DNA of 36,454 bases from a virus: the IMG/VR virus record IMGVR_UViG_3300044491_003445, positions 1-36,454 of that record; one strand, written 5' to 3'. The notes beneath the pieces are model-generated. The model was not told where the DNA came from, made no database searches, and saw only the letters and a list, made by a program, of their open reading frames with translations. Below are positions 25,372 through 32,048 of this stretch, piece after piece; within the stretch, counting starts at the first letter, position 1; every line of letters begins with the position of its first letter. The position numbers and the translations under genes were made by a program.

Positions 25372-27942
25372 TTAACCACCTTTGTAAAGCACATCTTGGA
25401 AAGATCCTCCACCAGAAGCAACTAAACTTGGTTGATTAAATGACTGCTTACTTTTACCCATTGGCATTGGAACTGGAACAGGTTGTGAAATAACAATAGG
25501 AATGACCTCTGCCATATCATATGATGCGTATTGACTAAGAACCTTTGAAGCATCTTTTCCTTCTGCCTTATTGAGTGCTTTCAGCAATCCAGGGAAAGTT
25601 CCTTGCAATGCTCTGGTGGAATCTGCATCAATGACATATTCTTTTCCTTCTTCACCCATTTCATAGAGACCTCTTCCTTTTGTAGGTCCACCCATTCTCA
25701 TCTTACCTTTAATCATATCACGAAGTTTATCACCACCAACACCTTTCTGTGCGTTGTAGTCTGCTTTATTAATATCTACAAAGTCAGATCTTTCACCATC
25801 ACCACCCCAACCTGGCCATGAAGGACCATGATTATCAGGTGCTGGTGGGGGAGTTCTTGTGTTTCCACTATAAGGTGGATTTTTTTGTCCGTCTCTCATT
25901 GATCCCACCTCAGCATGGGTTGCAACATTTCTTACATTAATCATAGATTTACTATAACCCATATCTTTTGCAACTGTTGCTGCTTCAGTAGTAAAAGCAT
26001 CAAGTTGTTTTGGTTTAATTGTAGACCAATTCCAACCTTGCATGGCCGCAACTGCAAGTCCAACACCTTGACGATTTCTATACTGAGTATGTCCTCCAGG
26101 TGTTTTGAATTGAGTATACGGGACTTTTTGAACTTTACTACCATCAGCAAGAATTGTACTGTGATATCTACTGGGATGTCCAGTCATCCCTGCTCCAGCA
26201 GACCAGTGTAAGTATATTTTTCCTTTCTTACTTGCCTCCATACCTTCAACATTTGCTGGTGTTGTTATTCCACGCGGTGTGTTGTTACTACCCGTAGACT
26301 TTGTAGAGGAATCCCCATCAACTCCATCTGGTTCGAAAGTACCTGATCCACCAAACGCAGTTCCACCTTTCCCAAATATTGCTGGGAAGAATGATGCTGC
26401 TGCGTGTGGAATTAACTTAGTGTAAAAACCAAAAGAGAATGGATTAAATGGATTTAATATTGAAAAATCTGGCAACTTTTTAACCTCTCCGTCCTTATCC
26501 GCATCTAAGAATGGGAATAATTTAGCGATTGCTTTCCTCAGTGTAAACGGACCAAATCTAATTTCAGACACATTCATGGTTGGGAAGTCCTTAATGAATC
26601 TACCAAATCCTTCCTTGAAAAAATTAACGATAAGACCACCCACGTCCATGGCAGTCTTGATTGCTTTGGATAATTTCTCTCCTGCTTCTTTAATCCCACC
26701 ACCAAGGATTAGTGAGTAGAGTAAATCACCAAAAAATGTTCCTAATGTTTCGCCCAACATCGTGCCAAGGATGGGGATAGGAATGAAACTTCCAAGCAAT
26801 CCACCAATAGCGGCACCCAAACCTTTAAATACTGCCTGACCTATTGGTTCACCTGCAAGTAAAGAAGCAACAGCAACAACGATAGGACCTAAGATAGGAA
26901 TTCTACCAAAGATACCCTTTGCTGCCTTCATTCCTGCTTTACCAAGTATCTTTGTTGCAAGTCTTCCAGGTGCTTTCTTTATCCCACCCTTCATGACACT
27001 TCCTTTAGCAGTGCCAACATTACCTCTCAGTGTTCCTTTCTGGGGTTTGGAAATAATATCTCCCTTTCTTAGTGCTCTATTGACTGCTGCCTTTGCTTGA
27101 GAAATACTCTTACCATTTGCTCTTGCATTATCATAAATCTGTCTTGCTTCAGGTCCGTGCAGTCTCTGCATTGCCCTTGATGCACCTCGTGGACCTGTTG
27201 GTTTCATACCTGGTCTACTACCAGGTTTTGTCCCTGGTTTTTGTCCGGGTTTTTGACCTGGTTTCTGTCCAGGTTTTCTTCCACCATTTATCCTTGCCGT
27301 AGTCATGCCAACAATAAGTATGGCATTAAACAAGTTTCCTAAAGCATCACCTAGAGCACTAAACCTTTCTACTGCTTCATCACCACCCCATTCTTTTAGT
27401 TTTTTCTCACTATTTTCCCATGCAGTAAATCCCCAGTTTAAGAATGTACCTAGTCCATCAACAATACCTACAACAACATTACTTACAAAATCAGCAACAG
27501 TTCCAATAAGAGGTAATATTTTCTTTAGGATAGGTGCAAACTTTATAAGTCTAACAATAACAAATCCAAGAATAATATTCTTGATGAAGTTCTTCATCCT
27601 ATCAAAGAAACTTAACTTAGGTACTTTAAGTCCGCCTCCTTTTTTTTCTTCTTTACTAGGTTTTGATTCTAGTTTACTTTCTCTTCCTCCCCTTTGTGCT
27701 TTTTGGTTTTCTTTTCTTTCTTTCTCAATTTTTTTCTTTTCAGTTACAACAGATCCTTTTAAAAGTTTATCAATCTCTATAACTTTTGTTTTTATTACTA
27801 CTGTCTTTTTGTCCGATGTTTTTGCACCAGCAGTTTCAGTGCCAGAAATTGGACTGATTCTGGATAATGAACTGATTTTTATTGGTCTAATTGCTCCACC
27901 AACAGATGAACCAGGGAGTAATTTTTGAGATGAGATTGCCAT
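25372..27942 (-). CDS. Tape-measure-like protein with C-terminal N-acetylmuramoyl-L-alanine amidase domain (856 aa)
   Basis: Residues ~60-110 are Lys/Glu-rich helix, then a hydrophobic segment FIKNIILGFVIVRLIKF (~116-134). Next come a six-fold PGQK-type repeat (~220-245) and a long hydrophobic glycine-rich region (~335-440, IPILGPIVVAVASLLAGEP). Hydrophobic membrane-inserting stretches are typical of tape measures, as is the C-terminal MGEEGKEYVIDADSTRALQG ... LLKALN motif (~790-830). Residues ~570-720 form an amidase_2/PGRP-like domain: IYLHWSAGAG with H579, RYHSTILADGSKVQKV, then ATHAEVGSMRDGQ with H676 and a DNHGPS...GGDGER end. H579 and H676 are likely zinc ligands. An incomplete EF-hand (DADKDGEVKKLP) lies near 480. 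It is 3 nt after the upstream paralogue. It probably sets tail length and opens the peptidoglycan. Confidence 0.72.
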   Translation of the reverse strand: MAISSQKLLPGSSVGGAIRPIKISSLSRISPISGTETAGAKTSDKKTVVIKTKVIEIDKLLKGSVVTEKKKIEKERKENQKAQRGGRESKLESKPSKEEKKGGGLKVPKLSFFDRMKNFIKNIILGFVIVRLIKFAPILKKILPLIGTVADFVSNVVVGIVDGLGTFLNWGFTAWENSEKKLKEWGGDEAVERFSALGDALGNLFNAILIVGMTTARINGGRKPGQKPGQKPGQKPGTKPGSRPGMKPTGPRGASRAMQRLHGPEARQIYDNARANGKSISQAKAAVNRALRKGDIISKPQKGTLRGNVGTAKGSVMKGGIKKAPGRLATKILGKAGMKAAKGIFGRIPILGPIVVAVASLLAGEPIGQAVFKGLGAAIGGLLGSFIPIPILGTMLGETLGTFFGDLLYSLILGGGIKEAGEKLSKAIKTAMDVGGLIVNFFKEGFGRFIKDFPTMNVSEIRFGPFTLRKAIAKLFPFLDADKDGEVKKLPDFSILNPFNPFSFGFYTKLIPHAAASFFPAIFGKGGTAFGGSGTFEPDGVDGDSSTKSTGSNNTPRGITTPANVEGMEASKKGKIYLHWSAGAGMTGHPSRYHSTILADGSKVQKVPYTQFKTPGGHTQYRNRQGVGLAVAAMQGWNWSTIKPKQLDAFTTEAATVAKDMGYSKSMINVRNVATHAEVGSMRDGQKNPPYSGNTRTPPPAPDNHGPSWPGWGGDGERSDFVDINKADYNAQKGVGGDKLRDMIKGKMRMGGPTKGRGLYEMGEEGKEYVIDADSTRALQGTFPGLLKALNKAEGKDASKVLSQYASYDMAEVIPIVISQPVPVPMPMGKSKQSFNQPSLVASGGGSFQDVLYKGG
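27196..27281. repeat. 12-bp tandem repeat encoding PGQK-type units
   Basis: Encodes about six consecutive P-G-x-K/R tetrapeptides (PGQK three times, PGTK, PGSR, PGMK) in the 856-aa tape-measure-like protein. It probably forms an extended, basic, flexible linker between the N-terminal hydrophobic segment and the downstream helical region, and copy number could vary by slippage. Confidence 0.8.
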
Positions 27943-27945
27943 TGA

Positions 27946-30285
27946 TTATACCACTATCCCAAGAACCTGAATTTTTTGTGATGAAATCATTGCGTCAGCA
28001 TCAATTTGTGGAACATCCTTACCAGTTTTTTCATCTGAGTAACTTGGTTGACCTTGTTGTGATTGTAGTTGCTGTTGATATGCTGCTGTGGATGAAGGTC
28101 TTGATGATCTAGAAACAGAGGAAGTTTTTGTTCCAATCTGTTCTCTAATTTTATTATAATCAAATGCTCCTTTATCACCCCTAGCATATGCAATTTGATC
28201 TGCGGCACTCATCTTCGGTTTTTCTGTGGCACCACCACCGCCAGAACTATCTGAAACATCATAGTCTCCATGGAAACCACCCTTAGAAATTCCACCACCA
28301 ATACCAAAATCTTTTCTCAGTTTAGCCAGTCTTTTACCCAATTCAAAAATTTGAATCCTTCCGTCACTATCAAAATCTAAACCTTTATTACCTGCATACC
28401 AATCCGCACTTTCTGGGCGTCCTTTTGGTAAACTTCCATCTCTGGATGCAAGCACAAAGTCTTCCTTCTCTTTTACAAAAGCAGGTAAAAATGTAGCAGT
28501 ATATAAATGCCCTGGTGATACTGGTCTTTTCACTCCACTTAAACTCTTCTTCAAAAACTTTTCAATGAAAGGTAGTTGTTCAGCACGAGACATTCCTTTC
28601 AAAGCTTCTACTGTTGTACCTTGTGCTCGTGCTGTGCTTGGAATCATTTGAATTAGTCCAGTAGCAAGAGTATCAGGATGCTGTGCATTAGGCATCAAAG
28701 AAGATTCAGATGCCATCTTTGCCAACATATCTCCAGGATTAACGCCAAGTCTCTTAGACATCTCAACCAGACCTTCTAAGAATGCGGTATCACTACCTAC
28801 CTTTTGTTTTGCAGTTCCTGATAATTGTAAAGGAATATCTTTTTCTGATTTTTTCTCACCTGATTGAGTAGGACCCGTTATCATTGGTGTAGTTACTGCT
28901 GTATCAGGAACTTTAACATCTGGATATTTCTTTGAGAGTGCTGCACTAATGGCCGCTGCATCAAACTTTTTCTCAGGATCTATATCAGCATTTTCCGTTT
29001 CTTGATCACCCGGTCTGGATTCACCTTTATGAATATCTCCACCACCTGATGCATAAACAGTTCCACTTAACATTTTGGGCCTGTTAGTTCCACCACCAGC
29101 AGCATTCATTGATGCAAGTGTACCCGATCCATATTTTTGAACTGCCCCACGAGACATCACAAACTCACCAGGAGTTAGCATTGCAGGAACAGTGTCAGTT
29201 CCATGTGCCATGGCATGACCACCACCAGAAAATCCTTGAACCAAACCACCACCAGAGTACGCAGCAGTCTTTCCAGTCTCTAAGAATTTTATTTGCTCAT
29301 CAATTTCTGCACCAACTCCCTGCATCCTCTCAAGGAAGTTTAATTTTGATTTCTGCTCTTCAAGTTTTTTAATTTTTTCTTCGGCAGTTCCGGGTTCAGC
29401 AGCAGTTTTTCTCTCTTGTTCATCAACTGTTCCCGGCATTAATTTGGGAATGACTGCACCTGCAACAAATAATCCAGCACCAGCGATTGCAGCAGCCGCT
29501 AACGGGTGAGCAGCTGCAAGTTTTGCAATAGTCATCGCGATCTTGGGGATGAACTTTAAGGTCATCAAGATCATCTTGGTAATAAATCTACCCAGACCAT
29601 TACCAAATGCAAGGTAAGCAAAGAGAATTGCAGGCCAGGTCTTACTTAAGAACTTACCAATAGCAGTTAATTTTTTCCGGTTATCAGAATTGCCCATCCA
29701 ATCAAGAAGTTTGACTATAACTCTACCAAGAATAACAGTCTTGATAAAATCAAATACCCTCTCAAATAATCCTTTGACTGGTGCCAGAACTTTATCGGTT
29801 GCTTTTATTAGTCCTTTAAATATTCCCCCTTCTAACTTACCCTCAGATGCTTTTCTCTTCTGCTTTTCAGTAGTCCGTCTTTGTAATTTGAGTTGTTTTT
29901 CCTTTATATTTTCTTGTTCTCTTAAACTATTGAGGATAGAATCAATTCCTTTCAGAATTTCATCCATATTTTCTTTAGTCTCCTCACCTACTTGTTGAGG
30001 AACAATTTTTCCAGGATTAATTTTCTGCGTTTTTACAATAGCACCACCACGGCCGCCGAGAGATGCCTTTTGACCAGACATAGATGGTCCGGCAGATTTC
30101 TTTTTACTTAAAACTTTTTCAACAAAATCTTCAAATCCTATCTTATCGTTTCTCTTTTTAAATCCTTCTTTTCTTTCAGTAGGAGATAATTTTTCACCAT
30201 CTATGGTTCCTTCAGCAGTAAGTTCATCAACATACTGCTGGTATCTTTCACCGAAAAACTTAGAACCGAATTTACTAGATGGCAT
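27946..30285 (-). CDS. Tape-measure-like protein with SLT/lysozyme-like domain (779 aa)
   Basis: After a charged N-terminal ~150 residues with a basic coiled-coil-like stretch (NIKEKQLKLQRRTTEKQKRK), it has the segment FDFIKTVILGRVIVKLLDW (~173-195). This is clearly related to the 856-aa neighbour, and a hydrophobic region follows (~240-290, AAAAIAGAGLFVAGAVIPKL). HGTDTVPAMLTPGEFVMSRG (~360-390) is a motif widespread in phage tape measures. Residues ~495-630 form a lytic-transglycosylase-like fold: MLAKMASESSLMP with E527 as presumed catalytic acid, then ATGLIQMIPSTARAQGT. A canonical EF-hand loop (DFDSDGRIQIFE, 637-648) follows. The ATG overlaps the end of gp51. It likely spans the tail lumen and cleaves glycan during injection. 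Confidence 0.75.
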   Translation of the reverse strand: MPSSKFGSKFFGERYQQYVDELTAEGTIDGEKLSPTERKEGFKKRNDKIGFEDFVEKVLSKKKSAGPSMSGQKASLGGRGGAIVKTQKINPGKIVPQQVGEETKENMDEILKGIDSILNSLREQENIKEKQLKLQRRTTEKQKRKASEGKLEGGIFKGLIKATDKVLAPVKGLFERVFDFIKTVILGRVIVKLLDWMGNSDNRKKLTAIGKFLSKTWPAILFAYLAFGNGLGRFITKMILMTLKFIPKIAMTIAKLAAAHPLAAAAIAGAGLFVAGAVIPKLMPGTVDEQERKTAAEPGTAEEKIKKLEEQKSKLNFLERMQGVGAEIDEQIKFLETGKTAAYSGGGLVQGFSGGGHAMAHGTDTVPAMLTPGEFVMSRGAVQKYGSGTLASMNAAGGGTNRPKMLSGTVYASGGGDIHKGESRPGDQETENADIDPEKKFDAAAISAALSKKYPDVKVPDTAVTTPMITGPTQSGEKKSEKDIPLQLSGTAKQKVGSDTAFLEGLVEMSKRLGVNPGDMLAKMASESSLMPNAQHPDTLATGLIQMIPSTARAQGTTVEALKGMSRAEQLPFIEKFLKKSLSGVKRPVSPGHLYTATFLPAFVKEKEDFVLASRDGSLPKGRPESADWYAGNKGLDFDSDGRIQIFELGKRLAKLRKDFGIGGGISKGGFHGDYDVSDSSGGGGATEKPKMSAADQIAYARGDKGAFDYNKIREQIGTKTSSVSRSSRPSSTAAYQQQLQSQQGQPSYSDEKTGKDVPQIDADAMISSQKIQVLGIVV

Positions 30286-30454
30286 TCCTTTGCTTTTGCT
30301 TTAATTCCTCTTCCTCAAGATGCTGTTGCAATAATGCAACATAGATGTCTCGTTCCCAAGGCATCAAGTTTTCAATCTCAGTTAATGAATATTTATGATA
30401 CTGCATCAAGGCAAAGTTAAGTTTATAGTAGTTCTCCAGATCCATATGGATCAT
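30275..30454 (-). CDS. 51: gp51-like baseplate hub assembly chaperone (59 aa), probable -1 frameshift extension of gp26
   Basis: A 59-codon frame beginning MIHMDLENYYKLNFALMQYH, with the signature IENLMPWERDIYVALLQQHL and a charged EEEELKQKQRNAI tail. This resembles the short gp51-type hub assembly proteins of T4-like cyanophages and the C-terminal part of tail assembly chaperones. It starts 2 nt after the gp26 stop (an alternative ATG, MDLENYY, is at 30445) and has no Shine-Dalgarno sequence. It overlaps the start of the 779-aa tape-measure-like gene by 11 nt. Its frame is -1 to gp26 and open upstream through a GGGTTTT slippery site, so it is probably made largely as a gp26-gp51 fusion of about 300 aa. 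Confidence 0.75.
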   Translation of the reverse strand: MIHMDLENYYKLNFALMQYHKYSLTEIENLMPWERDIYVALLQQHLEEEELKQKQRNAI

Positions 30455-30456
30455 GG
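30436..30456 (-). promoter_or_regulatory. Hairpin downstream of the slippery site
   Basis: On the minus strand, CCA-T-GATCC-ATAT-GGATC-TGG folds into an 8-bp stem with one bulged T and a 4-nt loop. It begins 9 nt after the GGGTTTT heptamer (6 nt after the overlapping TTTTTTC), the spacing at which stimulatory structures promote -1 ribosomal frameshifting. It also covers the first codons of gp51, which would hinder independent initiation there. Confidence 0.6.
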
Positions 30457-31176
30457 CTACGCGAAAAAACCCGCTAATCCCTCAATTACAACCTCATTTT
30501 CCTTTTTGGTATTTGGATTCTTAACCTTAACCGTATGGGAAAGTTTTGGCATTGTCTCAAAGAACTTTTCAATCTCCTTAAACTGAGAAGAATTCATCTG
30601 TTCTAAGAACTCAACAATTTCTTTCTTAGTACAATCTTCAGTTGCCCACACCTCATCTTCAGTATAGATTTTATCAATACAACTTGCAATCAAATCAAAA
30701 GATTGCTCCATTGCATTACCATCATCAAAATTAAAGTTGTTCTTAATGAACTGATCAAGAGATGGATATTTCATTTCCATCATAATAGTATCATCTAACT
30801 TAATCTTATTGGTATGCTCATCATTTCTTTGAACTTCAATATCATCAAGATTAATTTTATGTTGTACCTGAGTTTCTTCATCATCAGGACAGGTTACAGT
30901 AACCTCAATTTCCTCACCAACAGACTTACCTCGAATGTTTAAGAACAAGAATTCAATATCAAAAGTTGGAAGAGTTTCTACTTTGATACCTTTTGTTTGA
31001 ATACAGTTCTTAATTACATTCTTGATAGCATTTGTGATTTGCTTTGTATCTTCACTCTCTAAAGCAATCACAAGAACCTTTTCTTCTTTTACAAGGAAAG
31101 GTCTGTATTGAATTGTCTCACCTGTAGATGGCAATTCAAGTTCATATACCGGTGTGGCAATCTTTGGTAAAGGCAT
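30457..31176 (-). CDS. 26: gp26-like baseplate hub subunit / tail assembly chaperone (239 aa)
   Basis: The protein starts MPLPKIATPVYELELPSTGE and continues with IQYRPFLVKEEKVLVIALES, NAIKNVIKNCIQTKGIKVET and an acidic C2-like middle (VTVTCPDDEETQVQHKINLD). This is the T4 base-plate hub family (gp26 type) that in cyanophages is about 200-250 aa. The C-terminal third (TKKEIVEFLEQMNSSQFKEI, KFFETMPKLSHTV) is helical. It precedes gp51 and the two tape-measure-like genes in the T4 order 26-51-(27/29). Its 3' end carries the slippery site described separately, so the 239-aa form would be the non-frameshifted product, comparable to lambda gpG. Confidence 0.75.
   Translation of the reverse strand: MPLPKIATPVYELELPSTGETIQYRPFLVKEEKVLVIALESEDTKQITNAIKNVIKNCIQTKGIKVETLPTFDIEFLFLNIRGKSVGEEIEVTVTCPDDEETQVQHKINLDDIEVQRNDEHTNKIKLDDTIMMEMKYPSLDQFIKNNFNFDDGNAMEQSFDLIASCIDKIYTEDEVWATEDCTKKEIVEFLEQMNSSQFKEIEKFFETMPKLSHTVKVKNPNTKKENEVVIEGLAGFFA
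30466..30472 (-). promoter_or_regulatory. Candidate -1 ribosomal frameshift slippery heptamer (GGGTTTT)
   Basis: In the gp26 frame the codons are GCG GGT TTT TTC GCG TAG. G-GGT-TTT fits the X-XXY-YYZ heptamer, and T-TTT-TTC three bases later fits it too. A -1 slip at either gives the same product, ...GFFRVAMIHMDL..., joining gp26 to gp51 in frame. Confidence 0.65.
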
Positions 31177-31217: not shown

Positions 31218-32048
31218 TCAAGCAAGGTTTGCTCCAAACCCTGCAGAGAATGGAATACTTCCTGCTCCAATATCATTGAAGTTAACGCCATTTGGTGTAT
31301 TTAATCGGGGTAGATTTAAATTTAAATCAAGATCTGGATCAAAGAAGAATTTATTATTTTGTTGTACTTGTTCTGGAATAGTGGGTGTTGGTGGTCTAGA
31401 TGGTGTTGTAGGAATAATTGATCTACCAAGATAGTATCTAATATAACTCATTGACACAGTTATTTTTAATAATGAAGAAGCATCATAAGAAAGTGGCATC
31501 GCACTAACAGAAAGTGGGAAGGCTCTTACAAAATTATAGGTTAAAGAATTTTGATAGTTTCTTTCAAACTTTGTGACTTTCAGTCCTTGATCCATAATAT
31601 ATTCATTTGGATATCTTGCTCTATAATGATATGCTCTTGATGCAATATTTGGTTGTTGCTCAGTTAATGCAGTTCCTCCTTGAATACCACCTTGATCTTC
31701 ATTCATAATGAATGATATCCATCTCTCAAAGAAACGAATTGACGTATACCTCTCTGCATCAACATAGAATGTAAGATCAATTCTGTCGTCAAACTGTCTT
31801 CTATATGCATGTTTTTCAGTTACACCTGTGCGATCATTATTATTTTCAAAAGTCGTTAATTGAGATCCGGGAAGACTTGCTTCACTACATGATAAATTAA
31901 ACGATCTTTGATTAACACCAAGAAGTGATCTCAATGCAGAAGGAAAAGGAACCTCAACATCAAAGTGTGATGATAAAGCAGGATTTAATAATGATGATTT
32001 AATCTCGGCAATTGTTTTAGATTTACCAAGTCTATCGGTGAGTGCCAT
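31218..32048 (-). CDS. 54: gp54-like baseplate-tail tube initiator (276 aa)
   Basis: The tail-tube-like fold is visible as HFDVEVPFPSALRSLLG, LSCSEASLPGSQLTTFENNN, IDLTFYVDAERYTSIRFFER and SYDASSLLKITVSMSYIRYY. This order of strands and the Arg/Phe-rich centre is found in the tube/initiator family of T4 (gp19/gp54) and in cyanophage gp54. The C-terminal ~60 residues are Pro/Asn-rich and probably extended. It initiates tail tube polymerisation on the completed baseplate together with gp48. It is the first gene of the minus-strand hub cluster and is divergent from gp4 (31-nt gap). No perfect late promoter is seen for it on the minus strand. Confidence 0.7.
   Translation of the reverse strand: MALTDRLGKSKTIAEIKSSLLNPALSSHFDVEVPFPSALRSLLGVNQRSFNLSCSEASLPGSQLTTFENNNDRTGVTEKHAYRRQFDDRIDLTFYVDAERYTSIRFFERWISFIMNEDQGGIQGGTALTEQQPNIASRAYHYRARYPNEYIMDQGLKVTKFERNYQNSLTYNFVRAFPLSVSAMPLSYDASSLLKITVSMSYIRYYLGRSIIPTTPSRPPTPTIPEQVQQNNKFFFDPDLDLNLNLPRLNTPNGVNFNDIGAGSIPFSAGFGANLA

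Follow-up and report, generated by a model that had tools for sequence, protein, structure and literature searches.

In phage lambda, a single gene preceding the tape measure gene yields two tail assembly chaperones. These are the short protein G and, through a −1 ribosomal frameshift near the first-frame stop codon, the extended protein GT, of which G coats the tape measure and T recruits tube subunits (PMC5009743). Atkins et al. 2016 still excepted phage T4 from this rule (PMC5009743). The T4 proteins gp26 and gp51 have been listed as hub assembly chaperones, with gp51 being required yet absent from the particle (PMC3004832). For cyanophages and vibriophages, Sullivan et al. 2010 noted without explanation a short gp51, with ~200 residues missing (PMC3037559). 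Here, we analyzed gene 26 and the gp51 segment following it in a T4-like marine myovirus, the IMG/VR virus record IMGVR_UViG_3300044491_003445 (positions 1 to 36,454; this whole stretch of 36,454 nt is called “the window” below). Gene 26 very likely makes a short and a long tail assembly chaperone by a −1 shift, in a manner similar to G/GT. The locus shares with lambda the single gene before the probable tape measure, the predicted short and −1 extended products, and the slip site near the first-frame stop. It differs in belonging to a T4-like myovirus and in its slip heptamer, and no sequence similarity with G/GT was shown.

Related arrangements have been reported before. In another phage family, the Vandenendeviridae (Pseudomonas phage Adele), an invariant GTTTTT is accompanied by a −1 open reading frame (ORF) that in every case stays open as far as the tape measure gene (PMC12846349); the likeness considered here is that of the locus as described. 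The original prediction regarded the frameshift as undescribed for T4-like phages, which appears to be wrong. Two papers, in the passages citing it, credit Vladimirov, Gautam and Davidson 2022 (Virology 566:9-15; doi 10.1016/j.virol.2021.11.003) with identifying the short and long tail chaperones of T4-like phages, the one paper referring to T4-like phages that have a short as well as a fused long chaperone gene (PMC10885494), and the other to poly-T −1 frameshift signals in T4-like TAC-N genes (PMC12846349). Going by these citing passages, the general idea that T4-like phages use frameshifting to make their tail chaperones appears to date from this 2022 publication. The Shine-Dalgarno (SD)-like element, the hairpin covariation, the start codon losses and the Ackermannviridae variant presented below may be additions to this prior work.

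The gp26 ORF (30457..31176, minus strand) encodes 239 aa and its 3′ end, read directly, is GCG GGT TTT TTC GCG TAG. The slip heptamer T TTT TTC (30463..30469, minus strand) is in frame, one codon upstream of the gp26 stop. It is overlapped by a second in-frame heptamer, G GGT TTT (30466..30472, minus strand). For comparison, the lambda slip heptamer is G GGA AAG. Starting 22 nt before the gp26 stop, the −1 frame continues without interruption until the TAG at 30277-30275. Within it, the segment annotated in relatives as “gp51” has 59 aa when counted from the ATG at 30454. Slippage at TTT TTC predicts a protein of 300 aa, composed of 238 gp26 residues, R-V-A and the 59-aa “gp51”. The last two parts form the “T” extension (30275..30463, minus strand), predicted to be read only after the shift. 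In-frame T TTT TTC occurs only twice in the 11,354 codons of the 22 main window ORFs, and only at gp26 is it near a gene end. Both heptamers, the −1 phase, the open −1 frame and a downstream hairpin were all present where the original prediction had placed them.

To assess conservation, gp26 and the window were matched against IMG/VR, and of the 80 best matches we compared 79; the omitted one (L078) ends inside gp26. The 79 close relatives gave 78 distinct junctions, which are mutually related and so do not represent 78 independent events. T TTT TTC occupied an identical register in all 78 cyanophage-like junctions, each of which had the gp51 segment in the −1 phase. TTT TTC was always preceded by an NNT codon (AGT, TCT, GGT or GAT). 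This codon being mostly AGT or TCT in the relatives, G GGT TTT was rejected as the working heptamer. From the two slip sites initially proposed, only T TTT TTC is thus universal in the close relatives, and G GGT TTT, although present in the window, is not conserved. The two slip Phe codons were TTT TTC in 79/79 relatives, compared with a Phe TTT:TTC count of 673:234 elsewhere in their gp26, and the Gly, Leu and Ala/Ser codons flanking the slip site were each represented by four to eight different codons, with 4–6 synonymous forms for Gly, Leu and Ala. This contrast is meaningful despite the kinship of the phages, because it is internal to the same sequence set. The alignment of cyanophage junctions, suggested earlier as a check, therefore recovered a conserved slip site and −1 phase, with no synonymous disruption of T TTT TTC.

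A homopolymer of 6–7 T could also make the RNA polymerase slip, giving mixed mRNAs and a fusion by transcriptional slippage. Polymerase slippage usually needs runs of 8–9 or more, and the run found here is too short for its typical form. Instead of longer runs, the cyanophages hold exactly six T and then a C in all 78 junctions. The register X XXY YYZ is maintained as well, and the run is preceded by an SD-like element. We consider transcriptional slippage highly improbable.

Distant relatives were investigated by reading the junctions of Caulobacter Cr30, Pseudomonas Astolliot, Stenotrophomonas Yut2, Cronobacter LPCS28, Aeromonas phiAS5, Vibrio nt-1, Agrobacterium OLIVR5, Pseudoalteromonas XG4, Vibrio D495 and Salmonella Vi01, and of further viral contigs (80 + 18 of the single-copy type, 10 T-even). 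A T-segment profile, seeded partly from loci on which it was then run, detected the segment in −1 phase in about 185 of 188 single-copy loci; no locus of this type had it in +1 or as a fusion. The loci without a profile match were two with little sequence past the stop or none scored, plus D495, which lies beneath the reach of the profile and in which a similar −1 ORF was seen by eye. The −1 phase was retained down to about 20–30% gp26 identity, in cyanophages and Ackermannviridae as well as in Cr30, Astolliot, Yut2, LPCS28, phiAS5, nt-1 and OLIVR5. A gp51 in another phase, named in advance as a finding that would speak against the frameshift, was not seen in any single-copy locus with a detectable gp51 domain.

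Outside of the cyanophages and Ackermannviridae, 65 of the 66 distinct junctions had T TTT TT(C/T/A), with C in 46, T in 14 and A in five. The exception was Vibrio phage D495 (L087, 4640-4850), with CTT TTC AAG TAA and the −1 arrangement kept; D495 relatives were sought in viral contigs and none were found. The Ackermannviridae site, GAR ATT TTC ATT TAA, retains the −1 phase and TTTC, the heptamer being non-canonical. A T-like −1 ORF follows gp26 in Salmonella phage Vi01 (L090, 4780-4970), where it is unannotated, and in L172-L189. The T-even contig L198 (~2860), which is not a single-copy locus, scores in −1 as its gp51 ORF is broken upstream, probably by an assembly error or a mutation. The frameshift signal is almost certainly real, and it is retained across T4-like phages.

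Potential start codons for a separate gp51 were scanned from the opening of the −1 ORF to 20 nt beyond the gp26 stop. Outside of the cyanophages and Ackermannviridae, 64 junctions were usable; 48 of these had no ATG in the −1 ORF, and 35 of the 64 had no ATG, GTG or TTG. Ten of 13 Ackermannviridae were without any start codon in the scanned −1 range. In the cyanophage isolates ACG-2014d, ACG-2014b, S-MbCM25 and S-CAM4, the first start codon comes only inside the conserved domain, and there is no ATG ahead of the middle of this domain. The T segment is unannotated in the GenBank records of these isolates because an early start codon is absent. Records in which the T segment is without an annotated gene are KJ019036, KJ019161, KF156339, KU686202 and KU686196. 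With start codons absent in many relatives, a free-standing gp51 cannot be the conserved product. The ATG at 30454 in the window is not conserved, and so probably does not mark a gene start.

These data also bear on the possibility that gp51 is a separate 59-aa protein, translated by termination-reinitiation (translational coupling) at an ATG that overlaps the gp26 stop or closely follows it, with the T run being incidental. The window does have TAG CC ATG, in many cyanophages an in-frame ATG is located at +5 or +14, and databases annotate gp51 as a separate gene. Reinitiation is nevertheless improbable, considering that many relatives, complete isolates included, lack a usable start codon, that SD sequences are almost absent, that the −1 frame is always open through the slip site with slip codons invariant at synonymous positions, and that T4 carries a natural fusion at the same residue.

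Both T4 proteins belong to PF12322 (E 9e-64 for gp26 and 4e-52 for gp51). T4 gp26 consists of the PF12322 domain only, and is homologous to the window gp26 over its full length. T4 gp51 consists of a PF12322 domain (1-201) and a T domain, with matches of its C-terminal stretch to phrog_634 and to the gp51 segment of cyanophages. When aligned, the T4 gp51 extension starts directly after an invariant Phe, which is the slip codon. These matches identify T4 gp26 and gp51 as paralogs, with gp51 being a gp26-like protein plus an in-frame 59-aa domain. The two T4 proteins correspond to the two products predicted for the window, but T4 encodes them in separate, divergent neighbour genes without a slip site. 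As T4 gp51 is a gp26-like protein and a T domain joined at the slip position, gp26 would be the equivalent of G, and gp26-gp51 of GT. The fused form in T4 also allows for an originally fused gene having been split by gene decay or sequencing error. The chance of this is practically negligible, because about 185 single-copy loci, which come from independent assemblies and isolates, all have the −1 break at one and the same codon.

In whole-record searches of complete genomes, T4 had two PF12322 copies, and 11 single-copy phages had a single copy and a single T segment each. A second gp26 copy was sought in the window and in the complete relatives, and none was found outside of the T-evens. In a tree of 48 domains, the T-even gp26 and the T-even gp51 each formed a well-supported group, with the single-copy proteins as the remainder. 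The tree fits a single duplication in the T-even line; its root is not fixed, leaving the direction of change undecided. The unification of T4-like hub chaperones with G/GT put forward in the original prediction is supported for T4-like gp26/gp51 as a scheme, with the correction that T4 itself has two genes and no frameshift here.

With respect to stimulatory elements, an SD-like GAGGG (core AGGG; 30479..30483, minus strand) precedes the slip heptamer with a spacing of 9 nt. The Glu-Gly pair at this site was encoded in the cyanophage set by GAG-GGN, or by GAA solely with GGG (15/15). Compared with synonymous controls, predicted pairing with the anti-SD was stronger in the cyanophages (−7.0 vs −5.9 kcal/mol) and likewise in the others (−6.5 vs −4.8 kcal/mol). 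In the dnaX gene of E. coli, an upstream SD-like element at a similar spacing stimulates −1 shifting, and AGGG is a probable upstream stimulator of the shift described here.

The 3′ hairpin, CCA-t-GATCC(ATAT)GGATC-TGG (30436..30456, minus strand), begins 6 nt past the slip heptamer. The corresponding 72-nt segment of the window had a minimum free energy of −13.8 kcal/mol (z −1.1). In the cyanophage set the mean z was −1.7, with z < −1 in 81%, and the pairing was above that in all slid registers. Two stem pairs covary in the cyanophages, being paired in 63/77 (0/2000 shuffles as high) and 61/77 (7/2000). This covariation is moderate evidence for the hairpin, because the shuffles ignore relatedness and part of the stem falls in conserved His-Met codons. 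The predicted hairpin thus folds at 30456-30436 and is supported in cyanophages, but is not universal in T4-like phages; a universal downstream hairpin was rejected in favor of one restricted to the cyanophage group.

There is about an even chance that AGGG 9 nt upstream and T TTT TTN, joined in cyanophages by the covarying hairpin, constitute the usual and possibly ancestral chaperone-pair signal across T4-like myoviruses. According to this proposal, the T-evens would have replaced the signal once, by duplication and in-frame fusion, and the Ackermannviridae would keep the −1 phase with a non-canonical site.

The window gp26 matched PF12322 (E=6e-78) and phrog_150. Its AlphaFold2 model (mean pLDDT 87), computed from an alignment limited to the window and the retrieved loci, had as best PDB match the HK97 tail assembly chaperone 2OB9 (probability 0.90); a solved structure of the gp26 family was sought by sequence and none was found. 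The T segment of the window matched phrog_634 (E=2e-28) and also positions 241-281 of the phrog_150 profile, and is homologous to the C-terminus of T4 gp51. A G/GT-type −1 frameshift, and with it the assignment of gp26 and gp26-gp51 as G and GT made at the outset, is supported by the conserved slip site and −1 phase, the missing start codons, the in-frame fusion in T4 and, with its weak match, the possible chaperone-like fold.

Several points weigh against this reading. In many close relatives, the gp26 stop is closely followed by an ATG. Because an ATG is usually available there, the start-codon argument is weaker in the close group of the window, and some independent gp51 is possible in close relatives with a post-stop ATG. 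Ackermannviridae and Vibrio phage D495 are without a canonical heptamer, although the −1 phase is kept. The hairpin of the window itself, at z −1.1, is unexceptional, and no downstream hairpin was found in the distant relatives (mean z −0.6). The match to 2OB9 is weak (E 0.64, TM by target 0.44-0.52).

By gene order, the gp26/T locus occupies the tail chaperone position: tail tube, chaperone (gp26/T) and tape measure-like gene follow each other, with an identical order in Vibrio nt-1. The preceding gene (31218..32048, minus strand; phrog_45, PF23849) has a tail-tube fold and is gp54-like. The downstream gene (27946..30285, minus strand) encodes 779 aa, with a central hydrophobic segment and a sub-threshold match to transglycosylase (SLT). 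It is similar to phrog_35029, and its tape measure PHROG match is weak. Its position directly after T, its size and its architecture make it a probable tape measure protein. The identification rests on these three features because PF25671, the T4 tape measure family, when searched in the downstream genes of the relatives, gave no match. The 779-aa gene adjoins another large minus-strand gene (25372-27942, 856 aa), which is likewise similar to phrog_35029. An SLT-like region is present in one gene of the pair, and an endolysin-like region in its neighbour. The two genes could both be of tape-measure type, perhaps by duplication.

The lambda G/GT mechanism offers, by analogy, the best working model for gp26/T. 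What the sequences show directly is the slip site, the phase, the conservation, the homology and the fusion point, whereas slippage itself, its efficiency and the role as chaperone are inferred. Most ribosomes would terminate at the TAG and release the 239-aa gp26, similar to G. A minority would shift back by one base at T TTT TTC, with probable aid from the upstream SD-like AGGG and, in cyanophages, also from the downstream hairpin. The slipped ribosomes would continue in the −1 frame through the “gp51” segment and produce the 300-aa gp26-gp51 fusion, similar to GT. As in lambda, the gp26 part may coat the tape measure protein encoded by the next gene, the added C-terminal part may recruit tail-tube subunits, and both chaperones may depart before the virion is completed. 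T-even phages such as T4 would obtain the same two products from two genes.

For annotation, the consequence is that the two ORFs should be merged as a joined coding sequence. The apparent truncation of gp51 by about 200 residues in cyanophages and vibriophages would be explained by gp26 supplying the missing part via the frameshift. The long puzzling hub chaperones of T4, gp26 and gp51, would join the lambda G/GT scheme, and the single-gene and two-gene arrangements would lend themselves, as a natural pair, to studies of how recoding and gene duplication replace each other in phages.

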